In this document: positions 21,466 to 63,853 of the stretch, in pieces
How positions within the stretch are numbered: the stretch's first letter is position 1
Layout: each line of letters begins with the position of its first letter
Assembly (NCBI GenBank): GCA_033065855.1
Contig: JAVXUO010001872.1
Location: 1-64,000, forward strand
Reading direction: 5' to 3'
DNA from: Escallonia rubra
Lineage: Eukaryota > Streptophyta > Magnoliopsida > Escalloniales > Escalloniaceae
DNA length: 64,000 nucleotides
Program-made: the position numbers and the translations under genes
Notes under the pieces: generated by a model
What the model saw: the letters and a program-made list of their open reading frames with translations, nothing else
The model's database searches: none
What the model was told of the DNA's origin: nothing

Positions 21466-22576
21466 TATATACACCTTATGCAACAAATGAAAGGCTACAC
21501 GTATATCCTAACCAGTAGTGGAGCCAGAGAAATTCTTTAAGGTGGGCACCGAGAAACTAAATATTATTCAACAATCAATTAAATGCAAGAGCAAAATAGG
21601 GTTGTGTTACATATTTAATAAAAGTTATGAGTTTCTTCCTAGTAAAAAAAACTCATATAACAATGAACTGAAAACTAAAATAGACAATTAAGTACAATTG
21701 GCAAAAATATAAAAATGGATCAATCGACAAAATAACACAATCGCTCCCTTCGAGAAAAAGTCACTAGTTTATGCCACTAAAGTCACAAAAATATTACAGA
21801 AAACAGAATGCCTTATCGTAAAGAAAATAATTTGGTGAATCAAAAAATAGTTTTTACATATTAAACTTTGCTTTTAACACTTGATGCCGAGGTAGCCAAT
21901 AGGCAAGATATAATTGGTAACGAAGAAGTGAGGAGATGGGTTAACAAGAGTAAGGCCTTTTTCTTGTTATTATTAAGGAGATGCTTTATGAGGTCTGACA
22001 TGGAGAAACTAAGAAGAAGGACTTGAGAGACTTAAGGACGAACGACCAAGGGTCAAGGGAGAGTGAAGTGGAAGCCATAGATCTGCAGAAGAGGCAAGAA
22101 AAAAGGACAGCGGCAGAACCATCATGCTTTTCCAGTTTCCTCTTTTGTTGTGCCTTACGGTGAAATGACCAAATATAGTCTACCTAGTTCGTAAAAGTCA
22201 CATCTTCAGAAGGGCACATTCGTCCCTAAGTGCTACGTACATACATGTGAGGTTCAGCTTTTTGGCTAATCAAGTCAAAAAAAATGCCAGAACTTTGCAA
22301 TTGTAGCCCAAGACAATTGTAAAAATTTGCTGCTATCCGGGTTGTAGCCCAAGACAATTGTAAAATGGAAAAGATACAATGGACTCAATTAAGGATACTT
22401 AGGGGGTGGACACCTTTAGACCCTAAATTATGGATAACCTTCTTAGCACTCTCTAAACGGTTATTGCGACTCCCTAAATTACTTCACAGGACTATACGTC
22501 CAAGTAGAAAGGAATTTAAGGCCACCGTAAATTAATTCACAGGACTATACATCCACGTAGAAAGGAATTTAACGCC
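21466..22576. other. Upstream region of DUF247-1 with a hAT-like end
   Basis: The flank resumes as in copy 2 (ATACACCTTATGCAACAAAT). At about 21513 it is broken by CAGTAGTGGAGCCAGAG, which looks like a hAT terminus; its other end was not found. 22072-22300 repeats 18658-18830. Just before the gene, 22480-22575 holds a tandem doubling of TTCACAGGACTATAC ... GAAAGGAATTTAA (about 56 bp), present only once in DUF247-3. Confidence 0.5.
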
Positions 22577-24091
22577 ATGGCGGATATCCATGATGAGGAT
22601 AGCAGACGAGATAGGACTTCTGTCAAGAAATTATCAGAGACGATAAAAATTGATGTGGCCGACGATTACCTTGCAATCAAAGAATGGGAAGCCGCCATTG
22701 GAGGAAAGCAGACTAATACTAGCCTTTTGAACAACAAAAATAGAAATATAATACACAAGATTTCTCCACTCTTGCGAACGGACAAGAGAAACAAAAAGGA
22801 GTACGACCCAGTAGTTGTTTCCTTGGGTCCTTACCACCACAATAAAGGGGAGCTCCAGTTAGCAGAGAAGTTCAAGTCTAGAACACTACAAATGTTTCTT
22901 GCAAGTTGTGAAGGCATAACCATTGATGATTTGTGCGAGGGGGTCCTGGCGATGGTTGACATTGCGAGAAGTTGCTATGTCGAAGGCTCAACGGATGCAT
23001 ACGATGACGAGGAATTTTCCCGAATGATGCTCCTGGACGCCTGTTTTATTTTAACCATCATATGCAGTGAAATATTCGATTGGAGGTACATGGGAAATCA
23101 GCGTCCCCACACAAAGAATACCGATTTTGCTCTCACACTATCACTCGGCGCCACGGATGATACGAAGGTAGACCACGTGGTACTACTGTATCACGAGCAT
23201 CTAGGTGCGTTGGGGTGGGCTAATATATTCCGGGATATGTTTTTACTTGAGAACCAAGTGCCTTATGAAGTGCTTCGAGTGTTAATAAACTTCAGATCTG
23301 ATGACGGAAATGAACGGGAGGCAACAGTGAACAGATTTGTTGATTTCATAGTGCATAGGGAGAGGACTAGCGAGCCAGAAGGAAGAACATCGAGCACTAG
23401 CGTATCTCAGCAGCGGCCTTCTCATCTTCTTGAAATGTATCGAACATCCTTTCTCAGGTTTGATAGCAATCAGAAGCACTCGCCGAAAGCCAAATTTCGA
23501 GTTGATGTTAAGAATCGGTTTACCAACTACACACACTCGTGTCGTTCAACTACGGAGCTCAAAGCAAAGGGAATCCACTTTAGGCCTAGTACTGGCAAGT
23601 ATTTGACGGACATCGATTTCAACTCGTTCGGCTTTTATGGACAGCTTGAAATCCCTTCCAGGGTTATCACTCCCAGTGCCAAGGCCATTTTCCTAAACTT
23701 GATTGCATACGAAATGAGTCCACATACCCCTAACGATTTCAGTGTGACATCTTATATTGGTTTCATGAAATCACTCATTAATCATCCAGATGATGTGAAA
23801 GTGCTAAGGTCAAACCACATTCTTTTGAACAAACTGATCAACAGTGATGAAGAGCTGGCTAAGATGTATATGGAGATAAGCATTCCCACAGTGAACAATG
23901 CCATCTTCATGATCGTTCAAGAAAGAATCCAAGAGCACTACAATAGCAGGGGAAAGACGTGGATCGCGCAAATGATATCACGGTACCTTAGTAGCCCTTG
24001 GACTGCTATTGGTTTACTTGCTGCAACTTCACTTCTCGTCTTAACCTTTCTCCAGACCTACTTCACAATCTCTCCTCGCTCCGGCAAGTGA
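22577..24091 (+). CDS. DUF247 (UPF0481) family protein, DUF247-1
   Basis: Single-exon 504-residue plant DUF247 protein. Family landmarks in order: HKISPLLRTDKRNKKEYDPV and VVSLGPYHHNKGELQLAEKF (about 60-96), MMLLDACFIL (about 150), FRDMFLLENQVPYEVLRVLI (about 220-238), SCRSTTELKAKGIHF (about 320), PSAKAIFLNLIAYEM (about 365), TSYIGFMKSLINHPDDVKVL (about 390), and a C-terminal hydrophobic span WTAIGLLAATSLLVLTFLQT (about 475-495) that should anchor it in a membrane. Molecular function is unknown for most members; DUF247 proteins are male determinants at the grass S and Z self-incompatibility loci. The ATG follows GGAATTTAACGCC, conserved with DUF247-3. The region about 158-205 differs strongly from DUF247-3 while the flanks are nearly the same. 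Confidence 0.92.
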   Translation: MADIHDEDSRRDRTSVKKLSETIKIDVADDYLAIKEWEAAIGGKQTNTSLLNNKNRNIIHKISPLLRTDKRNKKEYDPVVVSLGPYHHNKGELQLAEKFKSRTLQMFLASCEGITIDDLCEGVLAMVDIARSCYVEGSTDAYDDEEFSRMMLLDACFILTIICSEIFDWRYMGNQRPHTKNTDFALTLSLGATDDTKVDHVVLLYHEHLGALGWANIFRDMFLLENQVPYEVLRVLINFRSDDGNEREATVNRFVDFIVHRERTSEPEGRTSSTSVSQQRPSHLLEMYRTSFLRFDSNQKHSPKAKFRVDVKNRFTNYTHSCRSTTELKAKGIHFRPSTGKYLTDIDFNSFGFYGQLEIPSRVITPSAKAIFLNLIAYEMSPHTPNDFSVTSYIGFMKSLINHPDDVKVLRSNHILLNKLINSDEELAKMYMEISIPTVNNAIFMIVQERIQEHYNSRGKTWIAQMISRYLSSPWTAIGLLAATSLLVLTFLQTYFTISPRSGK

Positions 24092-26754: not shown

Positions 26755-27690
26755 TCTATACCTATACTATTTATAAAAGTGTGAATGAGTGTAAATCAAT
26801 TTCTGGACACAAAGACACTTAAAAATTTTGATTATGACAACTAAATCCTTTAATGTTTTGACCTTACTCCTCCATAAATGCAAAAACTCCTTATAAACTC
26901 TTCCTCTTCAGGTTCCTCCCTCCACTCCAATTCTTGGAGAAGCGTCTCCGTCCATCTCTTGCAAAAATTAATTGTTACAATTAATTCGAACCTAATTGAT
27001 TATTGCCTCCACCAGTAACAACTCGCCATTTTATCTTCAACAATACCTTTTGCAATACCTTATCTAGATTATTACATGGGGAGACAATTAAATATTGGTG
27101 TTCCTTGATTTACACATCCACAACACAATTCTGCCTCATCATCTAATTAGAATTTTTGAGAATTGGTTGGTTGTAGATTTATATGGACAACAATTTGAAC
27201 ATTTGTTACTTGATGCAGCCCCAAGCAAAGATCGATATGATTATCCTTCTAAGGGTGCTTCATTTAGGTTTGAGACTACAGTTTCCTTTACATACTCACA
27301 ATAGATAAATAGCAAATAATATTTGTATATTTACTATCTATATGTTTCCATGTAGTTTGGAGCAACAAGTTGTGTTGGATCCATAATAGTGATTTCTCAG
27401 ACTCAATTTTTTTTTAGATGAACGAGCGATATTATTACTCATTATCGGTTACATCACTGAGGATAGCCGACATTAAAAAATCAGGCGCTTTCTCAGACTC
27501 AATTTATTCCTATGAATCTGGGAGTATGGGAGAAGCATGTGAGTTATAGAATTTACTTTAGGTTTTACTTTTCTCTTAATTCATGTCTTGAATTTGATTA
27601 CTACAATTTCCCTTTTGTTTCCTTTTCATTTAAAATGTTTGTCTGGATTTTTTTTTTTATTATAGATTTCTAAATTACCCTCTACTAGCC
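26755..27690 (+). mobile_element. Helitron 5' part, truncated copy
   Basis: It begins A|TCTATAC...TATTTATAAAAGTGTG after GGCTAA, a typical TC start. The sequence is shared with 30643-31478 (TTGATGCAGCCCCAAGCAAA, TTGGATCCATAATAGTGATT) and stops at CCTCTACTAG where a DUF247 fragment begins. The empty site GGCTAA|TCAAGTC is at about 43977-43990. No 3' hairpin is present in this copy. Confidence 0.6.
27410..27489 (-). mobile_element. Small retroposed insertion with target duplication
   Basis: About 80 bp with a T run at its left, flanked by direct repeats TTCTCAGACTCAATTT (27394 and 27490). The sister copy at about 31275 has the site once, uninterrupted. This is the mark of target-primed insertion of an A-tailed RNA on the minus strand. 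Parent family not recognised. Confidence 0.75.
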
Positions 27691-27696
27691 ATAGTT

Positions 27697-28263
27697 ATGA
27701 TGGTAAGAATCAGTATACCAACTATACACACTCGTGTCGTTCAGCTACGGAGCTCAAAGTAAGGGGAATCAAATTTGAGCCTAGTACTCACAGGTTTTTG
27801 AGGTACAGCCGTGGACAGCTTGAAATCCCTTCCAGGGTTATCACTCCCAGTGCCAAGGCCATTTTCCTGAACTTGATTGCATACGAAATGAATCCACATA
27901 CCCCTAACGATTTCGGTGTGACATCTTATATTGGTTTCATGAAATCACTCATTAATCATCCAGATGATGTGAAAGTGTTAAGGTCAAAACACATTCTGTT
28001 GGACAAACTCAACAGTGATGAAGAGCTGGCTAAGATATATATGGAGATAAGCATTCCCACAGTGAACAATGCATTCTTCATAGAAGTTCAAGAAAAAATC
28101 CAAGAACACTACAATAGCATGGCAAAGAGGTGGATCGCGCAAATGATATCACTGTACCTCAGTAACCCTTGGACTGCTATTGGTTTACTGGCTGCAACTT
28201 TACTTCTCGTCTTAAACTTTCTCCAGACCTACTTCACAATCTCTCCTCGCTCCCGCAAGTGAG
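27697..28263 (+). pseudogene. DUF247-2, C-terminal fragment
   Basis: An open frame of about 188 codons matching the last third of DUF247-1 and -3: QYTNYTHSCRSATELKVRGI, then RGQLEIPSRVITPSAKAIFL, the SYIGFMKSLINHPDDVKVLR block and the C-terminal membrane segment. Between GIKFEPSTHRF and GQLEIP, about 12 residues present in DUF247-1 are lost. There is no start codon at the proper place; it begins abruptly after the Helitron 5' piece. Translation from its own start seems unlikely, though the frame is otherwise open to the normal TGA. Confidence 0.88.
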
Positions 28264-43896: not shown

Positions 43897-45378
43897 TATA
43901 CACACCTTATGCAACAAATGAAAGGCCACACGTATATCCTAACTACAGAGGATCAAAGCTTGTGCACTAAGAAATTGGCTAATCAAGTCAAAAAAAAAAA
44001 AGTCAAAACTTTGCAAGCTGGTCGCCATAAACTACGCAAAGAGATGAAAGGTCCAAGTTAGCGTCTAGCCCCAAAGTCATTCAATATTAGGAGTCTTTCT
44101 TTAAAACTAGCGCACTGTAAGATGCCTTCACAGAACTTCCTGTTCAGGCTTCTCACCATCAAGAGGTTCTCCATCTCCCCGGCCGGTTGCAGTTCTTTTA
44201 CATTTCTCGAAACGCAGCAATAAAGGTATCTCTCTCCCTACGATCAGTTGTCTTCGCACTTGTTTCTTTCATATTGATACGGAGTATATTTCAAGAGTCC
44301 ATATATCGTACTGAGCCAGAGTAACTTAATGAGTAAAGTTCCGCTATTCTTTGTGTCGAGGTTCAATTTTAAGTTTTTTTTAACCATACCGATGAAAAAG
44401 CAAAAAGACAGTAAGAAACTCCATGCCATTGAGAAAATTGTGAAACCACCTAATAAGCACTAGAAAATATATTTATCGATCAGATGCACCGGGTAACTCC
44501 GTGCTTAGATGAGAGTGCTCCGTATTACTAAACAACGTGAATATTGCTGTAATTTCTTTTGGTCACCTCATAAGTTATTGCAAGTAATATTTTGATGAAT
44601 CAAGGTGTGCTACAAGCTGTGGTTGTCCCAAACTAGTGGGGGTGACCTGTGCGTTGGGCTAAGCAGGTTTTAACCAACCCAACCACGGACTTGGTGGCTC
44701 TATAATAACCAACCCAAAAATAATAAGGTTAGGCCGAGGAAAAGGGGTGGTTGTAGCTAAAAAGTGGTAATTTTTGAATTTTAGCGAACCCAAAAAATTG
44801 AACTGGAAAGTTATTGGTCGTAACTCGTAAGATTCTGGAATTGTATACTGCTTTGAAATTTCAATTCACAACCGCTCTTGCTCTCATCCGTGATTCGTGC
44901 AGCCAAGGGACTGGGCTAAGTTTCGCTTTTTCCTGTACACAATTGGAGCTTCTTTTAACACCAAGTTAACGTCTTTCTTTTATGCAGCCATAACCATTTA
45001 AGCCATTGAATCTTTGGCTAGGCTTCATGTTGTGATTAGCTAGTAGACACCAATATGTGGGTCTAGCCAAATTTTGTAGTATTTTTTATATTTATACCTA
45101 ATTTCGCACTTTTTAATCTCTAAAAGTTACCTTACCACCATAAGTGGTAAGCAAATTGAGTCCATTGTATACACCAAAACGATTTTACGCAAGATCGTAA
45201 AGTAAGTGAGAAAGAGAGAGAAAGCCTAAAGAATTAACGGCCACATGGAGTTCGGCACAACCGACATATGCATGTCGGTTCTAAAGCCAAACGGTACTAA
45301 CCGCTGCATTTCAACGGTTCTAAAGCAAATAAATAACTTCCCAGGACTATACATCCAATTTGAAAGGAATTTAAGGCA
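43897..45378. other. Upstream region of DUF247-3
   Basis: 44040-44230 is the upstream block shared with DUF247-4 (48835-49015) and with 18835-18960. It ends GCAGCAATAAAGGTATCTCT, which could be a 5' UTR exon with its donor at about 44225, though no transcript evidence exists. The remainder is AT-rich with no gene seen. Confidence 0.5.
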
Positions 45379-46863
45379 ATGGCGGATATCCATGTTGAGG
45401 ATAGCAGACGAGATACGACTTCTGCCAAGAAATTATCAGAGATGGTAAAACGTGACGTGGCCGACGATGACCGTGCAATCGAAGAATGGAAAGCCGCCAT
45501 TAGCGGAGAGCAGAAAATTGGTGGCGTTCTGAACGAGAAAAGGAGAAGAATAATACACAGGATTTCCCCACTCTTGCGAGCGAACAAGAGTAACGAAAAA
45601 GAGTACGACCCTGTAGTTGTTTCCTTGGGTCCTTACCACCACAATAAAGGGGAGCTCCAGTTAGCAGAGAAGTTCAAGCCCAGAACACTACGAATGTTTC
45701 TTGCACATTGTTTCAACAAAACCATAGATGATTTGTGCGAGGTGGTCCTGGCGATGGTTGACATTGCTAGAAGTAGCTACGTCGAAGGCTCAACGGATGC
45801 ATACGATGACGAGGAATTTTCCCGAATGATGCTCCTGGACGCTTGTTTTATTTTAAGCGTCATATGCGGTGACACATTCCAAACAGAGAATACCGATTGT
45901 GATCCCTTCACACCATCACTCGTTGCCATGGATAATATGATGGTAGACCCTGTGGTACTACAGTATCACGAGCATCTAGGTGCGTTGGGGTGGGCTAATA
46001 TATTCCGGGACATGTTTTTACTTGAGAACCAAGTGCCTTATGAAGTGCTTCGAGTGTTAATCAACTTCACATTTGATATCGGAAATGAACGGGAGGCAAC
46101 AATGAACAGATTTGTTGATTTTATAGTGCATAGGCAGAGGACTAGCCAGCCAGAAGGAAGAACATTGAGCACTAGCATATCTCAGCGGCAGCCTTCTCAT
46201 CTTCTTGAAATGTATCGAACATCCTTTCTCAGGTTTGATAGCAATCAGAAGCACTCGCCGAAAGCCAAATTTCGAGTTGATGGCAAGAATCGGTTTACCA
46301 ACTACACACACTCGTGTCGTTCAGCTACGGAGCTCAAAGCAAAGGGAATCAACTTTAGCCCTAGTACTGGCAAGTCTTTGACGGACATCGATTTCAACTC
46401 GTTCGACTTTTTTGGAAAGCTTGAAATCCCTTCCAGGGTTATCACTCCCAGTGCCAAGGCTATTTTCCTAAACTTGATTGCATACGAAATGAGTCCACAT
46501 AACCCTAACGATTTCAGTGTCACATCTTATATTGGTTTCATGAAATCACTCATTAATCATCCAGCTGATGTGAAAATGTTAAGGTCAAACCGCATTCTTT
46601 TGAACAAACTCAACAGTGATGAAGAGCTGGCTAAGATGTATATGGAGATAAGCATTCCCACAGTGAACAATGCCATCTTCATGAACGTTCAAGAAAGAAT
46701 CCAAGAGTACTACAATAGCAGGGCAAAGACGTGGATCGCGCAAATGATATCACGGTACCTCAGTAGCCCTTGGACTGCTATTGGTTTACTTGCTGCAACT
46801 TTACTTCTCGTCTTGACCTTTCTCCAGACTTACTTCACAATCTCTCCTCGCTCCCGCAAGTGA
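45379..46863 (+). CDS. DUF247 (UPF0481) family protein, DUF247-3
   Basis: Intact single-exon frame of 494 residues. It has the same order of DUF247 landmarks as DUF247-1: HRISPLLRANKSNEKEYDPV, VVSLGPYHHNKGELQLAEKF, MMLLDACFILSVI, FRDMFLLENQVPYEVLRVLI, SCRSATELKAKGINF, PSAKAIFLNLIAYEM, and a C-terminal hydrophobic anchor WTAIGLLAATLLLVLTFLQT. The start ATG GCG GAT ATC follows GGAATTTAAGGCA, the same context as DUF247-1. The segment between DACFILSVICGD and YHEHLGALGW differs from DUF247-1 in both length and sequence, while the flanks are nearly identical. Function unknown; probably a membrane-tethered plant protein. Confidence 0.92.
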   Translation: MADIHVEDSRRDTTSAKKLSEMVKRDVADDDRAIEEWKAAISGEQKIGGVLNEKRRRIIHRISPLLRANKSNEKEYDPVVVSLGPYHHNKGELQLAEKFKPRTLRMFLAHCFNKTIDDLCEVVLAMVDIARSSYVEGSTDAYDDEEFSRMMLLDACFILSVICGDTFQTENTDCDPFTPSLVAMDNMMVDPVVLQYHEHLGALGWANIFRDMFLLENQVPYEVLRVLINFTFDIGNEREATMNRFVDFIVHRQRTSQPEGRTLSTSISQRQPSHLLEMYRTSFLRFDSNQKHSPKAKFRVDGKNRFTNYTHSCRSATELKAKGINFSPSTGKSLTDIDFNSFDFFGKLEIPSRVITPSAKAIFLNLIAYEMSPHNPNDFSVTSYIGFMKSLINHPADVKMLRSNRILLNKLNSDEELAKMYMEISIPTVNNAIFMNVQERIQEYYNSRAKTWIAQMISRYLSSPWTAIGLLAATLLLVLTFLQTYFTISPRSRK

Positions 46864-47600: not shown

Positions 47601-49556
47601 TTTTTCCGAATTTGTTAATGCTTGTTGATAGGATGCATGTTATCATCCTTTTAAATTCGTATGTGGGGAATATTCATAGGATCGGATTCCTTCTATTCCT
47701 CATGCAACCTAAAGTTGACGCTCCGAGGTTACTTGACTTCGAGGCTACTTCGCTCCAAGGTCTCATTCAAGGACAATATGGGACTAATAATTATTCGCCT
47801 TTCATCCTTAGACCTGTGAGGCCTGAGGTTGTTATAAACGAGTATCCCTCGCATGTGTTTTGTCCACACGTCGGTTTAAGCGTCCATTAGTCGCCCACGT
47901 TTAGTCGCGTGTGTTTTCTCATGCGCTCTTCTAGTGGGAGGTATCCTACAGAAGCGGTCAAAAGCAGCGAATTTTATCTTCCCTCCATGATGGACTGGTC
48001 TAGTTACCATCCTCTCGATCTCCCACACACACACACAATGACTAAAGAGAATGAGGAGGATCTCAACCTGCAGCAATGCTACTGTATATATAGAATCGTG
48101 TCTTTCCAACTGTTGATATGGAGGCACTCTCTAAGGTTTTCTGCGAGCAACTCATGATGCACTTAATAGCTCTCTTTCGTGAGTTTTGAAATTTTTTACA
48201 AGCAAGCTTTCCCTGAGAATTTTTTTTCTCTAACAAGTCTTTCTTTGCTCACAAACACTAAAAAGGTTCCAATTAGGCAACCAATGCATGGTGATGACGG
48301 GAACGTTATTGATGGGAGGACTTCTGACGATCATGACCCTTTAAGCAAATTGTTTATCATTTTTTTCTTTTAATTCTGGGACTAAAGGTCCTAGTTTTAG
48401 GATTTTGGCTACTTGTACTGGAGTACAAAGAAATATGAAAGGTAAACAAGATGAACAATTGCTTTGAAGATGAACATCGTCAAGAAGTTACAAGTCAATT
48501 TGCAATTTGCTGTGCAACGGTTTAGTCCCTGAGCAGTGGCCGTGCAAATATAAAGGGTAAGAGTCTCAAAAAAGACAAATGAGAAATCATGCATGACAGA
48601 ATAGATCGCCTTAGGTTGACAAAAATATTCCCCCACAGGCTCAACGCCTGCTTTTGAATTTAATCATGTAAGCCTTCTCTTATTGCTAATTGATCACTTT
48701 TAGCGACAAATACGCGCCTTATGCAACAGATGAAAGGCCACACGTAGCGTTTCGCTAATCAAATGAAAAAGGCCAGAACTCTGCAAGTTGTTCGGCTATA
48801 ATACTAAGAACAGAGATGAAAGATCCAAATGAGAGCCGGCCCCAAAGTCATTTAATATTAGGAGTCTTTCTTTAAAACTAGCATACTGTAAGATGCCTTC
48901 ACAGAACTTCCTGTTCAGGCTTCGCACCATCAAGAGCTCTCCATCTCCGCAACCTCTCCCTGACCGGCTGCGCTTCCTCTACATTTCTCAAAACGCAGCA
49001 ATAAATTAAAGGTGTTTCTCTTTCCCTCTCTCCTTACTATCACTAGTCTTCGCACTTGTTGCTTTCATATTGATATGTTTTAAAAGTCCATACATCATGC
49101 TAAGCAAAAATAACTCTATTGGTAGCGTTTTACTATCTTTTGCTTTTTTTGGTACACTATAGATAACATCTTTCATTTATTCAGCCATAACCATTTAAGC
49201 CATGAAAAAGTTTTGGCTACCATTCGTGTTGTAGGAAAATAGTTACAACCCTTCATATCGCGACAATTAATGATCGTTAAATGTCTTTAGTGACTCTTAT
49301 TAGTGACAATTTAGACGATGGGACTTAGTCTAGGCTTCATGTTGAGATTAGTTCATCTATACATAAATTCACAATTTTTAGTCGCTAAAAGTTACTTAAT
49401 CGATACCTTTGATAAATTTGCATGTCACCATAAGTGCTTTTGAAGCAAATCGAATAGTTTTAACTTTTATATAGGGTTCTCTCTAAAAGATTACTGCCAC
49501 CCCTAAACTTACTACTTCACAGGATTATACATCCAAATTGAAAGGAATTGAAGGCA
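47601..49556. other. Intergenic region upstream of DUF247-4
   Basis: 47601-48600 is unmatched elsewhere in the window and has no convincing gene. 48600-49015 is the DUF247 upstream block (ATCATGTAAGCCTTCTCTTA, CTTCACAGAACTTCCTGTTC). Unlike copies 1 and 2 it has no CACTA remnant beside CACTTTTAGCGACAAATACG. Confidence 0.6.
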
Positions 49557-51034
49557 ATGACGAAGTTCATTATGAGGATCACAGAGGAGCTGGGAGTACT
49601 TCTATCGAGAAACTAACAGAGATGATAAAAATTAATGTGGTCGACGATCGCGATACAATCAGAGAATGGGAAGCCGCCATTAGAGGAGAGCAGAGACATA
49701 CTGGCGTTGCGAACGAGAAAAAGAGAAGAATAATACACAAGATTTCCCCACTCTTGCGAACGGACAAGAGTAACGAAAAAGAGTACGACCCAGTAATTGT
49801 TTCCTTGGGAGTTGGGTCCATACCACCACAAAAAAGTTGAGCTCCAGTTAGCAGAGAAGTTCAAACCTAGAGCACTACTAGAATATGTTTCAGGTTGTGA
49901 CGGCAAAAGCATAAAAGATTTGTACAACAAAGTCTTCGAGATGGTTGACATTGCTAGAAGTTGCTATGTCGAAGGCTCAACGGATGCGTCATGACGAGGA
50001 ATTTTCCCAAATGATGCTCCTAGACGCTTGTTTTATTTTAAGCGTCATATGCAGTGTAGCATCCGAATACAACCCCGCGGAAATGATCATTGGTAAAAAA
50101 TTCACAATAGATTTTGGTGCCGTAATACTACTGCACTACGTACGAGTATCTAGGTGCCTTGGGGTGGGCTAATATATTTCGGGATATGTTTTTACTTGAG
50201 AACCAAGTGCCTTATGAAGTGCTTCGAGTGTTGATCAACTTCAGGTCTGATGTCGGAGATGAACGGGAGGAAACAATGAACAGATTTGTTCATTATATAG
50301 TGCATAGGCAGAGGACTAGTAAGCCAGAAGGAAGCACATTGGGCACTAGCATATCTCAGCGGCGGCCTTCTCATCTCCTTGAAATGTATCGAACATCCTT
50401 TCTCAAGTGTACCAGCAATCAGGAGAGCTCACGCAAATTCGAATTTCGATTTGATGGTGAGCGTGAATATATCAAGTACACACACTCGTGTCGTTCAGCT
50501 ACTGAGCTCAAAGCAAAGGGAATCAACTTTGCGCCTAATACTGGCAAGTCTTTGACGGACATTGGTTTCAACTCGTTCGGCTTTTATGGCCAGCTTGAAA
50601 TCCCTCCCAGGGTTATCATTCCCAGTGCCAAGGCCATTTTCCTAAACTTAATTGCATACGAAATGTGTCCACATACCCCTAACGATTTCAGTGTGACATC
50701 TTATATTGGCTTTATGAAATCACTCATTAATCATCCAAATGACGTGAAACCGCTGAGGTCAAACCACATTCTGTTGAACAAACTCAACAGTGATGAAGAG
50801 CTGGCTAAGTTGTATGCGGAGATAAGCATTCCCACAGTGAACAATTCCATCTTCATGAGCGTTCAAGAAAGAATGCAAGAACACTACAATAGCAGGGCAA
50901 AGACGTGGATGGCGCAAGTGATATCACGGCACCTCAGTAGCCCTTGGGCTGCTATCGCTTTAATTGCTGCAACTTTAATTCTCGTCTTAACCTTTATTCA
51001 GACCTACTTCACAATCTCTCCTCGCTCCAGCTAG
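49557..51034 (+). pseudogene. DUF247-4, frameshifted pseudogene
   Basis: Full-length homologue of DUF247-1 and -3 in at least four frames. The ATG at 49557 is out of frame with what follows because one base is missing before GAGGATCAC. Further shifts lie near 49805-49835 (extra bases around TTGGGAGTTGGG), near 49985 (GCGTCATGACG) and near 50140 (CACTACGTACGAG). From about 50159 to 51034 the frame is open for 291 residues with all C-terminal DUF247 blocks and the membrane anchor, ending PRSS. No functional whole protein is expected. A shorter protein from an internal ATG is possible but unsupported. Confidence 0.88.
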
Positions 51035-56640: not shown

Positions 56641-56984
56641 ATTTATTGACTTAGTGCACAACGATCGAGAGCGACCAAACGTTTAAACCAACTAAACCGA
56701 TGGTATTTGTTAGGTTCAGTTCAAAACTTTTCAAATCAAAGGGTAAATTTTTGAGTTGCGAATTACTCCTAAAGCGAATCAAATTGAACCGTGTTCACCC
56801 TATAAAGGGCTGGGTTGGAATTTTTTTGTTCAAAAGTCCTTTGTATTCCATTAATGTTCAAGATACGTAAACATTCAGCATTCCATCACTAATCTAAAAT
56901 CCAAACTATACAGTTGCAGGGGCAGAGCCACGCTTGTACGAGGGGGGGCTATTGTACCCCTTCAGATTTTGGATATATATATAT
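56641..56984. other. Intergenic region with a hAT-like terminus and TA tract
   Basis: At 56917 CAGGGGCAGAGCCACGC matches a hAT terminal sequence (compare CAGGGGCGGAGGCA at 38898) but has no partner in the window. A short (TA)n tract (56973-56984) leads straight into the next element. Confidence 0.5.
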
Positions 56985-57330
56985 GGGAGCTGATCCCTTG
57001 ACAGCGCTGGCAAATGGAGTTAAGTTGCCAACGCGATCTGGCCGTCCACGCGCGATCTGTGGACGGTCCAGATCTTTTTTTTGCAATTTTTTTAAGTCTG
57101 TCCGCCACATTATGTAGCGGACAGTATTTTTGACAAATATACCCTTATTCCCGTCCGCTACATTATGTAGCGGACGGAATTTTCTGACATTTTTTTCTCT
57201 CTCTCCATTAATGCTCTGACGGTCCAAATATTTTTTTTACTTTTTTTTTAAGTTCGTCCGCTACATAATGTAGCGGACGATTTTTTGACAAAAATATCAT
57301 CATGTTCCATCCGCTACATTATGTAGCGGA

Positions 57331-57867
57331 GGAGTAGGCAGACATTATTTTTTTGTTCTGTCCTTTCTCTTTCTCTGTCCTTCCTCGACCACAGCAACAG
57401 GATGAGGTCACCCCCCCTCTCTCTCTCTCTACCCTCCTCTCTCTCAACCAGAGTATCCAACTCAAGGGCTGACTGATATCATGGCCGAAGAAACCCAGAA
57501 ATCGGCTGCAGAGGCCCCAGCGCCCGCGGCTGCAGAAGTCGTCGCGGTCTCCGATGTGCCGGAGGCCGAGAAACCCACCGCCGCCATCGCCGAGAAAGAT
57601 GCGACGCCGGAGCCTGTGAAGGAGCCGGCGACGGCGGAGGAAGAGAAGATCACCGAGTCGGCGTCGTTCAAGGAGGAGACCAACGTCGCCGGTGAGCTCG
57701 CCGACCCAGAGAAGAAGGCCGTGGACGAACTCAAGCAGCTGGTCCAGGAGGCCCTCAACAAGCACGAGTTCACCGCCCCTCCTCCGCCACCGCCGGCCAA
57801 GGAGGAAGAGAAGCCCGTAGAGGCTGCACCGTCCAGGAGGCCCATATCCCTTTCCATCAAGCCATAG
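57331..57867 (+). pseudogene. Patellin (SEC14-GOLD protein) N-terminal fragment inside the transposon
   Basis: An open frame of 128 codons at 57481-57867 starts MAEETQKSAAEAPAPAAAEV and includes ESASFKEETN and KKAVDELKQLVQEALNKHEF, the acidic N-terminal region of patellins. The SEC14 lipid-binding and GOLD domains are absent. 57331-57480 is pyrimidine-rich leader-like sequence, presumably the captured 5' UTR. After about residue 120 the frame runs into antisense PPR sequence, which supplies PISLSIKP and the stop, so the frame is a chimera. It could be transcribed with its own captured leader, but no patellin function is possible. Confidence 0.8.
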
Positions 57868-57938
57868 AAAACCTTCCTCCCCGAACCCATATCCCCACAC
57901 TTGCAATACATATCGATTAAAGCAGACTGAATAAACAA
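57846..57938 (-). pseudogene. PPR-protein fragment (antisense, captured)
   Basis: The minus strand reads LFIQSALIDMYCKCGD then MGSGRKVFYGLMERD, a typical pentatricopeptide-repeat stretch. It is about 31 codons, joined directly to the patellin piece in opposite orientation. It must come from a different gene, so the element carries parts of at least two loci. Confidence 0.72.
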
Positions 57939-58549
57939 CTGCTGCCATGGGGGGAAGAAGAGCAAGAGGGCTGTCAAGGTTTTAAACGAGAAATTGAACC
58001 TTCCACTTCTTCTTCATCCGTTCACGCCATTGATCTCTAGGTTGAGCTTCTTCATCCAGCCCAGCAGTGTTGTGGGCTGTTGTCATTGCTGCAAGGAGGA
58101 TGGAGAGGAGAGAGAGAGAGAGAGAGAGAGTGAAGAAGAAGAAGAAATGAGGGGACATGAGAGGCAGATATGTCAGGAGAAGAGAAAAGGAGTCTGTCTC
58201 TGTCTGTCCGCTACATAATGTAGCGGATGGAACATGATGATATTTTTGTCAAAAAATCGTCCGCTACATTATGTAGCGGACGAACTTAAAAAAAAAGTAA
58301 AAAAAATATTTGGACCGTCAGAGCATTAATGGAGAGAGAGAAAAAAATGTCAGAAAATTCCGTCCGCTACATAATGTAGCGGACGGGAATAAGGGTATAT
58401 TTGTCAAAAATACTGTCCGCTACATAATGTGGCGGACAGACTTAAAAAAATTGCAAAAAAAAGATCTAGACCGTCCACAGATCGCGCGTGGACGGCCAGA
58501 TCGCGTTGGCAACTTAACTCCATTTGCCAGCGCTGTCAAGGGATCAGCT

Positions 58550-58552
<3 letters not shown>

Positions 58553-58591
<39 letters not shown>
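58553..58591. repeat. (TA)n tract between two transposons
   Basis: 39 bp of TA separate the right end of the patellin-carrying element (GATCAGCTCCC) from the left end of the next (GGGCCGATCCCC). Confidence 0.95.
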
Positions 58592-58593
<2 letters not shown>

Positions 58594-59385
58594 GCCGATC
58601 CCCATCGACCGGTGGGAAAATAACAATTTTCCCACCGAATCGCAGGTAAGAGCAGCGATTGGGAAGCAGCGCGCAAAAATGACGAAAAAGGACGAAAAGG
58701 GACCAAAATGGCACGAGAAATTCACCAAAATATCACGAGAAAATGAAATTATCGCGAGAAAATGGGCATTAATGCCCAATCGCATGAAAGACTTGCGATT
58801 GGCATTAATGCCCAATCGCAAGTCTTACATGCGATTGGCATTATTGCCTTCTTGCCCCCCCACCCCCCTTGCCCCCCACCCCGTGGCCCCCACTTTCCTT
58901 TTTCTTTCTCGCTTCTTTCCTTTTTTTTTCTTTCTTTCTTCTTTCCTTTTTTCTTTATTGTCTTTTCACCCCATAGCCCATTTTTATGAGCATATTCAAA
59001 AAATTAGACTCGTTAATCTCAGGGTTTTCCAATGAAATGTATTTCGGCGAAAAACGAGACACGTTATTTTTTGGGTTTTCCTATGAAGGGCCTATTCGGG
59101 CACACTTTAGGGGCCAATTCATAACGTTCGAAAAATCTTGTAATTTTTTTTGTCACTTTTTTTCGCTCATTGCACATGAGGCACGCTAGTTAGCCCATTC
59201 TTATGTATTTCGGCGAAAAACGAGACACGTTATTTTTTGGGTTTTCCTATGAAGGCCCTATTCGGGCACACTTTAGGGGCCAATTCATAACGTTCGAAAA
59301 ATCTTGTAATTTTTTTTGTCACTTTTTTTCGCTCATTGCACATGAGGCACGCTAGTTAGCCCATTTCTATGAATTTCGGCGAAAA

Positions 59386-59997
59386 ATGAGACAGGGTCTT
59401 TGTTTTGCACTTTGGCAAAATCACGCTCTTGCCTTATTGAACTCGGACGATCAATGTCACGCATCTGAGGCTAACCTAATCATGATACCGTGTCTTCACG
59501 GGTGCCACTTCTTCCTATTAGTTCTCCATCCAGCGAACAAAACGGTCCACATATACGATAGCCTAATGGAAGATGGACCTGGTGGGCAGCTGACGGAGAT
59601 GTACTCCACGTACATCAATGCGGTGGTTAGTTTATATTTCTAGAGCTTCGCTCATAGTCTATTCTTCTTGTTAAGTAGGCTTGATAACTTTTTTTACTGT
59701 TGGATGCAGACTACTATCATTCCACTAGCGTGCCGACATGTTACGGGGGAAGCCATCACGAGCTCAACAATGATAGAGCCTTGGACGGTCGTGATGATTC
59801 AAAACCGACCAAAGCAATATAACAGTCATGATTGCGGGATTTACGTCATCAAGTACATGGACTACATAGCTCGCTCGGATGTGCTCGAATATACGTCGTG
59901 GTCTCGAAGGGATGCATTGACGTTTAGATATCGGATAGCCTGGGAGCTGAAAAAGGGTGTAGCTAGACGCCTTCCTTACCATTCCCTTGAGATGTAG
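59386..59997 (+). CDS. Ulp1/SENP-type C48 cysteine protease domain, transposon-borne
   Basis: Two exons, 59386-59625 and 59710-59997, with an 84-bp GT-AG intron (GTTAGT ... TGCAG). Spliced product 175 residues. C48 landmarks: GCHFFLLVLHPANKTVHIYD with catalytic His41 and Asp58, then WTVVMIQNRPKQYNSHDCGI with Gln116 and Cys122 (Gln-x5-Cys as in Ulp1), followed by YVIKYMDYIARSDV. The family removes SUMO-like proteins. Here it is only the protease core, without a long N-terminal region. The first ~17 codons lie inside the left TIR, so the true start could differ or the piece could be a truncated capture. Catalytic residues are kept, so activity is not excluded. Intron edges are by eye. Confidence 0.72.
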
Positions 59998-60572
59998 TTG
60001 ACGTTCGTATGGATTATTATTAGTATTGTTGGATTTTGGATATTAAGATTTCAAATTGAATTAGCCTTATTATTACTTTAGAATGACTTTGGACAATGGG
60101 CTAACTAGCGTGCCTAATTTAAAATACCAAGCTAGCGCGATTTCGCGCGAAACTTTTATGAGAACCCTAGGATGTTGGGAAGTTCCATTCCCCAGGAATT
60201 CGCGCCATTCTGAAGCCATTAGCTATTTTTTTGGCCGAACGACCTTTTAAGCGCTTGATCTAGACACCGGTTCGCGATTTTTGCGCGAAAGATCCGTAAA
60301 ATACTTTTTAGATCAAGGATGAACTCAGGAAGCGTAAAATAGCATTTTGAGGCACTTTTGAGATTTTTCCTGATGCCAGGGGCATTTTGGTAATTTGCCA
60401 CCCCGCGATGGGTGTTTTGGTAATTTTCCCGCGCCAAGTTTTTCAAACGACTTTTTAGTCCAGAAATGTAAGTAAACCACCTGAAATGTTGTTTTGAAGC
60501 TGGTTCGGGGGCGTAATTGTCGCTAGGGGTGAAAACTTAATTAGACAGTTTTTTCACGAATTTATAAAAAAT
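59998..60572. other. MULE core downstream of the Ulp1 exons
   Basis: Non-coding by inspection, with GCGCGATTTCGCGCGAAAC-type words. It leads into the right TIR at GCTAGAGCGTGATTTTGCC (60573). Confidence 0.5.
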
Positions 60573-60645
60573 AGCTAGAGCGTGATTTTGCCAAAGTGCA
60601 AAACAAAGACCCTGTCTCATTTTTCGCCGAAATTCATAGAAATGG

Positions 60646-61130
60646 GCTAACTAGCGTGCCTCATGTGCAATGAGCAAAAAAAAAGTGACAAAAAAAATTA
60701 CAAGATTTTTCGAACGTTATGAATTGGCCCCTAAAGTGTGCCCGAATAGGGCCTTCATAGGAAAACCCAAAAAATAACGTGTCTCGTTTTTCGCCGAAAT
60801 ACATAAGAATGGGCTAACTAGCGTGCCTCATGTGCAATGAGCGAAAAAAAGTGACAAAAAAAATTACAAGATTTTTCGAACGTTATGAATTGGCCCCTAA
60901 AGTGTGCCCGAATATGGCCTTCATAGGAAAACCCAAAAAATAACGTGTCTCATTTTTTGCCGAAATACATAAGAATGGGCTAACTAGCGTGCCTCATGTG
61001 CAATGAGCGAAAAAAAAGTGACAAAAAAAATTACAAGATTTTTCGAACGTTATGAATTGGCCCCTAAAGTGGCCCAAATAGGCCCTACATAGGAAAACCC
61101 AAAAAATAACGTGTCTCGTTTTTCGCCGAA
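60646..61130. repeat. Three tandem ~165-bp repeats in the right TIR
   Basis: GGGCTAACTAGCGTGCCTCA starts at about 60646, 60809 and 60977. Each unit ends in ATAACGTGTCTC. The left TIR has two units in inverse orientation (59030-59365). The unequal copy number shows the TIRs have changed by tandem expansion or loss. Confidence 0.85.
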
Positions 61131-61224
61131 ATACATTTCATTGGAAAACCCTGAGATTAACGAGTCTAATTTTTTGAATATGCTCATAAAAATGGGCTAT
61201 GGGGTGAAAAGACAATAAAGAAAA

Positions 61225-62401
61225 GAGTTAATTACGCGGTTGACCACTGTACTATTAGGCAAATTTCACTTTGACCACTGAACTTTGATTTGTGTCAAAG
61301 TGACCATTGGACTCTTTAATTTGTTCAATTAAGTCATTCCGTTAGGTTCAGTTAACAAAAAGTCTGTTAAGTGTCCATGTGCGAGGCACATGTGGGGGCA
61401 AAATTGTCAAAACATAAAAACTCAAAATTTTTATATTACTTATTTTTTTTATTATCTTTTTTTATTATTTTTATCCTTTTTCTACTTTTCTTTTTCTTCT
61501 CCTATTCTTCTTCCTCCCCAAAAGTCAGATCAACCCAATTCGGCCTTGAGCTATGCTCCTGGGTCAACTCACCACCACCTCCACCTCCGCCGTCCACCGG
61601 AAACAGCTGCCGCGGATGCGTTTGATTTGTGACGGATACTGGAATTTGTGACGGAATCGGGTCGGAAGGAAAGATACCGAAATCGAAGACAAACGCGTCA
61701 CCGGCGAGCGTCGAGCACGAGTCCTCGTCGCAATGGCAAACGCGTCGCCGGCGTGCGTCGAGCACGAGTCCTCGTCGCCCGCATTGCTCGAGCCGCCGTC
61801 GGCATTCACGACCGATGAATTGGAGGTGCCTGATTGCAGAAGAGGGCAAAGACGAAGCAACTAGCCGATTGTGCCGATGGATCGTTTTTTGGTGTTAATG
61901 GGTTAGTTTCAGATCTGTGGTGTTAATGGGTTAGTTTTTTGGTGGTAGTGGTGGACTGTATTGGTGGCGGTTGTGAGTTTAATGGTGGAGGACAGAAGGT
62001 GGTCGTGGGTATGGCGGTGGTTGTGCTTGGTGGTAGTGTTGGGTTGGTGTCGGGGTTGCGCTTGGTGGTGGTGCTGGGTTGGTGTCGCGGTTGCGCGTGG
62101 TGGTTGGTGGTGGAGCGGTGGCTATGCTCGGTGGTGCTGATGCTTGGTTGAGGTTGAAGACATCAAATGAGAAAGAAGAATGAAGAAGAAGAAGAAGAAG
62201 AAGAGGAAGAAAAATAAGAATAGAGACTGACGGATTTGCCCCTAAATTAAATGATTTAACGGACATTTTGTTAACTGAACCTAACGGAATGACTTAATTG
62301 AACAAATTAAAGAGTCCAATGGTCACTTTGACACAAATCAAAGTTCAGTGGTCAAAGTGAAATTTGCCTAATAGTACAGTGGTCAACCGCGTAATTAACT
62401 C
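61225..62401. mobile_element. Nested Pack-MULE, 1.18 kb, recent insertion
   Basis: TIRs of about 140 bp begin GAGTTAATTACGCGGTTGAC and are almost identical. The 9-bp target duplication TAAAGAAAA is exact (61216-61224 and 62402-62410). It lies inside the right TIR of the Ulp1 MULE. The interior has an AP2/TOE-like exon piece on the minus strand, then GGT-rich filler and a GAA run. No transposase. Confidence 0.93.
61502..61833 (-). pseudogene. AP2/TOE-like (RAP2.7 type) transcription factor N-terminal fragment
   Basis: On the minus strand SGTSNSSVVNADGGSSNAGD and DEDSCST, then in a second frame FDFGIF, RQLFPVDGGG and SSRPNWVDLTFGEEEE. These match, in order, the first-exon region of euAP2/TOE proteins before the AP2 domains (compare [20 protein letters not shown] in RAP2.7). 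A 47-bp tandem duplication (GAGCACGAGTCCTCGTCG occurs twice) shifts the frame. No AP2 domain is present. It was captured by the nested MULE. Confidence 0.72.
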
Positions 62402-62797
62402 TAAAGAAAAAAGGAAAGAAGAAAGAAAAAAAAAAGGGAAAAAAGAAAGAAAGAAAAAAAAAGGAAAGAAGGGAGGAAGAAAAAGGAAAGTGGGGGGCAA
62501 GGGGGGTGGGGGTCACGAAGGCAATAATGCCAATCGCATGTAGGAGTTGCGATTGGGCATTAATGCCCAATCGCAAGTCTTTCATGCGATTGGCATTAAT
62601 GCCCATTTTCTCGCGAGAATTTCATTTTCTCGTGATATTTTGGTGAATTTCTCGTGATATTTTGGTGAATTTCTCGTGCCATTTTGGTCCCTTTTCGTCC
62701 TTTTTTCGTCCTTTTTCCGCAGCAGCTTCCCAATCGCTGCTCTTACCTGCGGTTCGCTGGGAAAATTGTTATTTTCCCACCGGTCGATGGGGATCGG

Positions 62798-62800
<3 letters not shown>

Positions 62801-62834
<34 letters not shown>
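62801..62834. repeat. (TA)n tract at the right end of the Ulp1 MULE
   Basis: 34 bp of TA follow GGATCGGCTC directly. Confidence 0.95.
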
Positions 62835-62837
<3 letters not shown>

Positions 62838-63853
62838 TTTTCATAATTTCACACACTCTCTCTCTATCTTTCTGACTCTCATTGACCTGTCGACCTCTCT
62901 CTCTCTCTCTCTTCACCGACTCACCTACTCACGGCCACGGCGCGGCCGGCTCCTTACTCCGGCAGACACTAACCCACGACGGCACGACACCGACACACCG
63001 TCGACACAAACCCACGAAACGAGCGGCGAGCCCACGATCTGGGCTATCTCTGGATCTGGTTCTAGTCTTCTAGATCTACGCCAACTACGCGCCGACGGCG
63101 AGTCGGTGACGACACATGATCTGGTTCGGTCTTCAGTCTTCATTCCAAGTCTCCAACAGTCCATCGGCGGCAAGAACTAGAAGGCAAGAACCCACCTCCG
63201 GCGGCCGACGAGTCAGCGACATGTATGTTCCAACTTCCGAAACTGTAATTTCACCTTGATGACTTCATTGACTTGATCATGCCAGTTGCCATCTCTACAA
63301 AATTTGTTTGTTTTCTTTTTAGTATCATAGCTCATAGCCATAGGAAATTAGGAATGGATTATGGATAATCTTGAGCATTGATTAATGATTATGGATAATG
63401 TTTAGTATTGATTATGGATAATGTTTAGTATTGATTATGGATAATCTTGAGCATTGGTTATGGATAATGTTGAGCATTGAATATGGTTAATGTTTAGCAT
63501 TGATTATGGATAATCTTGAGCATTGATTATGGATAATCTTGAGCATTGATTATTTGTTTGATAATTTTAGGTTATTAATTGTACATTTGAGAATTGAGAT
63601 TATTAATTGATGATTTTAGGTTGTTAATTGTGCATTGAACATTTGAGATATTGAGATTGTTGATGGAGAATGAGACGCAATTGGATTGAGATATCGAATG
63701 TGTGATTTAGTTGAATTGTGGATTGAAATTAGGTTAACGCAATAATGAAACATAACTGGAAAAGTAAAAGAATAAATTTGTTTTGATTAATTAGGTTATT
63801 TGATTGATAATTGATGGATTGATATTGAAAATAAAATGTATTTTATTTTCACA
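62835..63853. other. Leader-like region before the right-edge ORF
   Basis: 62850-63220 is CT-rich then GC-rich and could be a promoter and 5' UTR. A possible donor is CGACAT|GTATGT at about 63221, followed by AT-rich, intron-like DNA including a 23-bp minisatellite. This gene model is inference. Confidence 0.35.
63356..63553. repeat. Minisatellite, 23-bp unit, about 8 copies
   Basis: Units of GATTATGGATAATCTTGAGC+ATT alternate with GATTATGGATAATGTTTAGT+ATT, with a few point changes. Confidence 0.92.

Follow-up and report, generated by a model that had tools for sequence, protein, structure and literature searches.

What kind of mobile element occupies positions 58592-62800 of the 64-kb window (the whole 64,000-nucleotide stretch of Escallonia rubra DNA that was analysed), and how did part of a C48/Ulp1 protease gene come to lie between its arms? 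An earlier, sequence-only reading had described an inverted-repeat element with a C48 gene at this location. The extent, the TIRs and the protease fragment proved to be real, but the reading had not mentioned a second element nested in the right arm, the TA run that probably served as target, or a neighbouring inverted-repeat element. Here, the main element is called B, the nested element C and the neighbour A. The left end of B, GGGCCGATCCCCATCGACCGG, pairs with its reversed right end, GAGCCGATCCCCATCGACCGG, and the element is made up as follows:

58592 to 62800, no strand assigned: full length of the MULE-like element B (inverted-arm and end comparison)
58592 to 59432, plus strand: left TIR, 841 bp, inner border placed to within about 3 bp (inverted-arm comparison)
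60574 to 61224, minus strand: right TIR, inner part (inverted-arm comparison)
62411 to 62800, minus strand: right TIR, outer part, past nested element C (inverted-arm comparison)

Without element C and one copy of its TSD, B measures 3,023 bp. Both TIRs are long, which is a trait of MULEs. The length of about 850 bp originally given for them holds for the left TIR (841 bp), whereas the right TIR amounts to about 1,040 bp, spread over 60574-62800 and split by element C. Leaving aside a low-complexity stretch at approximately 58871-58949, alignment of the outer arms over 302 columns shows 10 mismatches and 27 gap columns (96.4% ungapped identity), and that of the inner arms over 445 columns shows 9 mismatches and 2 gap columns (98.0% identity). 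With the low-complexity stretch included, identity across 58594-58964 amounts to 84.9% (397 columns). Using blastn, no other copy of B was detected within the 64-kb window outside 58592-62800 at E 1e-3, and a 25-mer from the end of B gave no exact match in viral contigs, a collection distinct from plant genomes.

Tandem Repeats Finder identified a 166-bp unit in both arms of B, and a short piece of the same repeat was found by comparison in the core of the element:

59037 to 59393, plus strand: 166-bp tandem repeats, 2.2 copies, in the left TIR (Tandem Repeats Finder)
60613 to 61136, minus strand: 166-bp tandem repeats, 3.2 copies, in the right TIR (Tandem Repeats Finder)
60095 to 60115, plus strand: isolated 21 bp that match part of the 166-bp unit, within the core of B (sequence comparison)

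The five full units differ from one another at 3-8 alignment columns in pairwise comparisons. The repeats had been reported as 165-bp units present in unequal number; the inequality (2.2 versus 3.2 copies) was confirmed, while the unit is 166 bp long. Composite TIRs that contain tandem repeats of unequal number are a trait of foldback elements. These units are minisatellite-like, and slippage, unequal exchange or gene conversion may have altered how many of them one arm contains. The inequality had also been singled out as unusual; it is indeed seen in B, but it has already been described in Tm1, a Mutator/Foldback element in which the number of tandem units differs between the two TIRs (PMC3169594, in excerpt).

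The interruption of the right TIR is accounted for by element C:

61225 to 62401, no strand assigned: nested element C, 1,177 bp, with 146-bp TIRs, in the right TIR of B (arm match and TSD)
61216 to 61224, plus strand: TSD of C, TAAAGAAAA, first copy (sequence comparison)
62402 to 62410, plus strand: TSD of C, TAAAGAAAA, second copy (sequence comparison)

The TIRs of C are identical at 144 of 146 positions, and the 9-bp TSD that brackets the element is exact; a TSD of this length is described as typical of MULEs (PMC4486113, in excerpt). No Pfam family rose above the cut-off among the frames of C that were tested. Since the TSD of C sits within the arm of B, C inserted once that arm already existed.

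TA runs of at least six units occur three times in the 64-kb window, in each case exactly at a border of A or B:

56973 to 56984, no strand assigned: TA run of 6 units, left of element A (repeat search)
56985 to 58552, no strand assigned: element A, a TA-flanked inverted-repeat element with gene-like fragments (arm match and Pfam)
58553 to 58591, no strand assigned: (TA)19.5, common to A and B (repeat search)
62801 to 62834, no strand assigned: (TA)17, right of B (repeat search)

B is therefore flanked by a microsatellite on both sides (19.5 and 17 TA units), and A and B are joined end to end through a single TA run without interrupting each other; both are traits of the MuTAnT and SaTar elements. 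Because of the TA runs on its two flanks (58553-58591 and 62801-62834), no TSD is readable for B. The first 30 bases of A scored higher against the left end of B, and likewise against its right end, than did any of 2,000 base shuffles, while the score against C, a control that is not TA-flanked, was reached by 211 of 2,000 shuffles. Given the likeness of their ends, A and B were probably mobilised by related machinery. The TIRs of A span 346 bp and are identical at 345 positions. On the minus strand, A showed a weak PPR match under Pfam's cut-off (E 0.014), and its plus-strand frame at 57406-57864 gave one Pfam match, to an unrelated family and at a chance-level E of 0.12; this frame resembles the N-terminal region of patellins. 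At the right arm of A, a palindromic GTCCGCTACATAATGTAGCGGAC-type module occurs in four copies (58198-58437). A 21-mer from the end of A had no exact match in viral contigs, which do not comprise plant genomes.

The core of B contains a C48 frame composed of two exons:

59386 to 59625, plus strand: exon 1 of the C48 frame, its first 47 bases in the TIR, with His41 and Asp58 (open reading frame, Pfam and alignment)
59626 to 59709, plus strand: predicted intron, 84 bp, GT-AG (splice-site sequence)
59710 to 59997, plus strand: exon 2, including the stop codon, with Gln116 and Cys122 (open reading frame, Pfam and alignment)
59433 to 60094, plus strand: probable outer limits of the C48-bearing segment, running from the TIR to where a repeat-like motif first appears (60095)

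When spliced, the frame is open over 175 codons, encoding 175 aa, and matches the Pfam family Peptidase_C48 with an E of 9.4e-14 at profile positions 84-209 of 217. Taken singly, exon 2 gave an E of 4e-9 and exon 1 an E of 0.12, which is under the cut-off. The best of 18 solved sequences matched at up to E 1 was human SENP2 (E 4.4e-6, chain residues 105-220), whose H, D, Q and C, which we take to be the catalytic residues, align with His41, Asp58, Gln116 and Cys122 of the frame. These results bear out the earlier description of a two-exon frame that keeps the four residues. To call the catalytic core apparently intact was too strong, as the complete catalytic domain is absent: despite the four active-site positions, 83 of the 217 profile positions (38%) are missing on the N-terminal side. 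For this reason the fragment, judged by its sequence, is unlikely to be catalytically active.

The start of the frame does overlap the TIR, as had been noticed before. The first in-frame ATG (59386) and about 16 codons, up to 59432, are left TIR sequence, and 16 of the first 18 residues are encoded in the right arm of B as well. This shared coding sequence suggests a chimeric frame, part TIR and part C-terminal protease fragment, or else a TIR that has extended into the fragment. On the other side, the 21-bp repeat piece at 60095-60115 would confine the foreign segment to 59433-60094 at most. Genomic DNA rather than cDNA is the probable source, to judge by the predicted intron of 84 bp (GT-AG). 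The four catalytic positions in a two-exon open frame could reflect recent capture or some constraint, a point that weighs against the reading favoured below. In a tblastn search of the 64-kb window with the protein, four chance-level matches alone (E 3.2-7.3) were obtained outside element B. Searches of collections other than plant genomes returned 2 pattern-matching stretches for protease relatives in viral contigs and 42 for exon-2 relatives in genome contigs, none of which was confirmed.

Pfam scans were carried out on 15 of the 36 frames of at least 60 aa listed around B, 14 of which lie in or overlap the element. In agreement with the sequence-only reading, no transposase was found among these 14 frames, and C48 was the sole family above the cut-off. 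Matches below it (Eapp_C, E 0.11; CRA, E 0.27; a Dickkopf subdomain, E 0.13; CSG2, E 0.032) are taken as chance, with the exception of the match of exon 1 to Peptidase_C48 (E 0.12).

For classification, MULEs were recognised by a TSD of 8-11 bp, long TIRs and a transposase of the mudrA type, encoded by the element itself or by TIR-sharing relatives; MuTAnT and SaTar elements by flanking microsatellites, end-to-end arrays and multiple copies, some with TSDs of 9-10 bp; and Pack-MULEs by a host gene fragment between TIRs without a transposase. The MULE membership of B rests on architecture. With regard to Pack-MULEs, B contains a C48 fragment with a predicted intron between its TIRs and no transposase in the 14 frames, the fragment being a candidate for host origin. 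Taken together, we consider it likely that B is a non-autonomous, microsatellite-targeting MULE, inserted in a TA run beside A and carrying a truncated, probably inactive C48 fragment. This would correspond to the known microsatellite-targeting type (MuTAnT, SaTar, Micron) together with gene capture as in Pack-MULEs.

We hypothesize that B inserted into the TA run beside its relative A, with TA runs as the target, and that a transposase supplied by an autonomous relative would act in trans on the ends of B. The foldback-type TIRs enclose a genomic fragment of a C48/Ulp1-like gene with a predicted intron. Of the catalytic domain, this cargo retains only C-terminal sequence, fused on its 5' side to the TIR, which supplies the first ATG. 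A protein, if made at all, would probably be an inactive leftover, and the fragment passive cargo. Later, C, a distinct MULE-like element with a 9-bp TSD, entered the right arm of B, as its TSD within that arm shows.

The fragment may also have a different origin, in that B could descend, by internal deletion, from an autonomous MULE that encodes a mudrA-like transposase together with a complete Ulp1 protein, and would then have made no capture of its own. Ulp1-bearing MULE families, some of them with a transposase, are known from several plants (PMC2528002 and PMC13317346, both in excerpt), and the N-terminal truncation of the fragment coincides with the TIR border; however, the 14 frames tested within B yielded no transposase remnant. 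We regard this origin as a serious possibility that falls somewhat short of an even chance. It is compatible with most of the reading that we favour, and the likelihoods attached to the two are not meant to add up to certainty.

Since TA-run flanks cannot tell a 2-bp from a 9-bp duplication, B might be a Tc1/mariner-type element, or a member of another superfamily, with a 2-bp TA duplication. TIRs of at least 841 bp with internal repeats, and the presence of gene cargo, are more in keeping with MULEs, on general knowledge and on the excerpted MuTAnT, SaTar and Tm1 literature, which makes this assignment improbable. A third reading gives the C48 frame a function, as a short TIR-driven protein that aids the element, for example through interference with the SUMO pathway or through anti-silencing in the manner of Ulp1-bearing VANC genes. 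The open frame of 175 codons, the GT-AG intron and the four retained catalytic positions are consistent with such a helper protein; MULE TIRs can bear promoters (PMC3310237, in excerpt), and Ulp1-bearing Vandal elements anti-silence, the Ulp1 domain's own part there being undefined (PMC13317346, in excerpt). With the first 83 of 217 profile positions absent, though, we find this distinctly unlikely. A still broader proposal, in which A and B are microsatellite-targeted Pack-MULEs with capture inside TA-sheltered elements, TA arrays are assembly sites for content exchange, and the truncated, TIR-initiated C48 frame is an expressed and selected SUMO-binding or anti-silencing protein, appears very unlikely. 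A palindromic assembly artefact, which had been named beforehand as an outcome that would overturn the earlier interpretation and which the long arms and the identity of all 61 of the 61 innermost aligned bases might recall, is barely credible and was rejected, given the unique spacer, the mismatches and gaps between the arms, and the presence in one arm alone of an extra 166-bp unit and of element C with its TSD.

As a non-autonomous, microsatellite-targeting MULE, B can be set beside several published systems, cited here from excerpts of the respective papers. MuTAnT elements of Medicago truncatula lie mostly in TA runs, with 14 of 218 outside perfect ones, and have modular foldback TIRs and, outside microsatellites, 9-nt TSDs (PMC4486113). 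B resembles them in its TA-run flanks, its long modular foldback TIRs and its G-rich outermost bases, and MuTAnTs are likewise mostly non-autonomous (PMC4486113). They differ from B in size, 90% of them being 200-300 bp long, and in their published terminal mask; moreover, the excerpts of PMC4486113 describe no gene cargo for MuTAnT, whereas B carries a C48 fragment. The SaTar elements of guayule and rice, rice Micron included, form end-to-end arrays through microsatellites without mutual interruption (PMC5907723), and A and B similarly are TIR elements lying end to end through TA runs, uninterrupted by each other. Guayule SaTars measure about 400-1,700 bp, B being larger, and three of five rice SaTar families (1, 3 and 5) are labelled non-Pack-MULE (PMC5907723), whereas B contains a gene fragment and A gene-like fragments. 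A further difference from SaTar arrays is that B has been split by C, an element without microsatellite flanks. Published microsatellite-targeting elements are mostly smaller than B (PMC4486113, PMC5907723), and many microsatellite-associated MITEs are described from pineapple (PMC8449440).

Ulp1 domains are reported in MULEs of Arabidopsis, melon, rice and grapevine (excerpts of PMC2528002 and PMC13317346). B is like the Ulp1-MULEs of melon, rice and grapevine (van Leeuwen 2007, as cited in PMC2528002), melon TIR-MULEs included, in that a MULE harbors the domain. The grapevine families drawn with Ulp1 are transposase families (PMC2528002), whereas B has no transposase in the frames tested and a truncated domain. 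The sequence-only reading, in proposing a MULE with Ulp1, had pointed to Kaonashi (KI-MULE), which does share with B an Ulp1-type domain in a MULE (Hoen 2006, as cited). The data are consistent with a non-autonomous, MULE-like element that bears an Ulp1/C48 fragment, but the parallel fails: KI-MULEs are non-TIR (PMC2528002, PMC13317346) and have a 200-aa protease domain in reverse orientation to mudrA (Hoen 2006, as cited), whereas B has long TIRs, and its membership of Kaonashi was rejected. Composite TIRs with tandem repeats are common to B, Tm1 (PMC3169594) and Muta1 (PMC5225508); the units of Tm1 and Muta1 are 9-15 bp long and their hosts are animals, whereas the unit of B is 166 bp long and its host is a plant.

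Every single feature of the B locus has a precedent in other plants or animals, and the locus alone opens no new mechanism. It does bring together the targeting of TA microsatellites, TIRs of the foldback type that contain minisatellite units, and a fragment of Ulp1. TA targeting combined with gene cargo was not found in excerpts of the open-licence papers retrieved on this combination, in which the one match to 'TA microsatellite' was the title of a reference. Should A and B prove to be TA-targeters that carry gene fragments, the movement of gene pieces would extend to microsatellite-targeting MULEs.

Elsewhere in the 64-kb window, Pfam identified a DUF247-type gene at 22520-24088, with similar frames at 27666-28259, 45364-46860 and 49487-51031. 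These frames lie in segments that are approximately 82-93% identical and probably form a local duplication cluster. On the minus strand, an uninterrupted open frame of 254 aa at 54665-55426 matches the ATP synthase delta (OSCP) subunit (Pfam) and is presumably of the chloroplast type. Together with the DUF247 gene, it marks the host as a plant. To the right of the last TA run, at 63354-63553, lies an array of approximately 23-bp and 30-bp units that are TGATTATGGATAATGTTTAGCAT-like.
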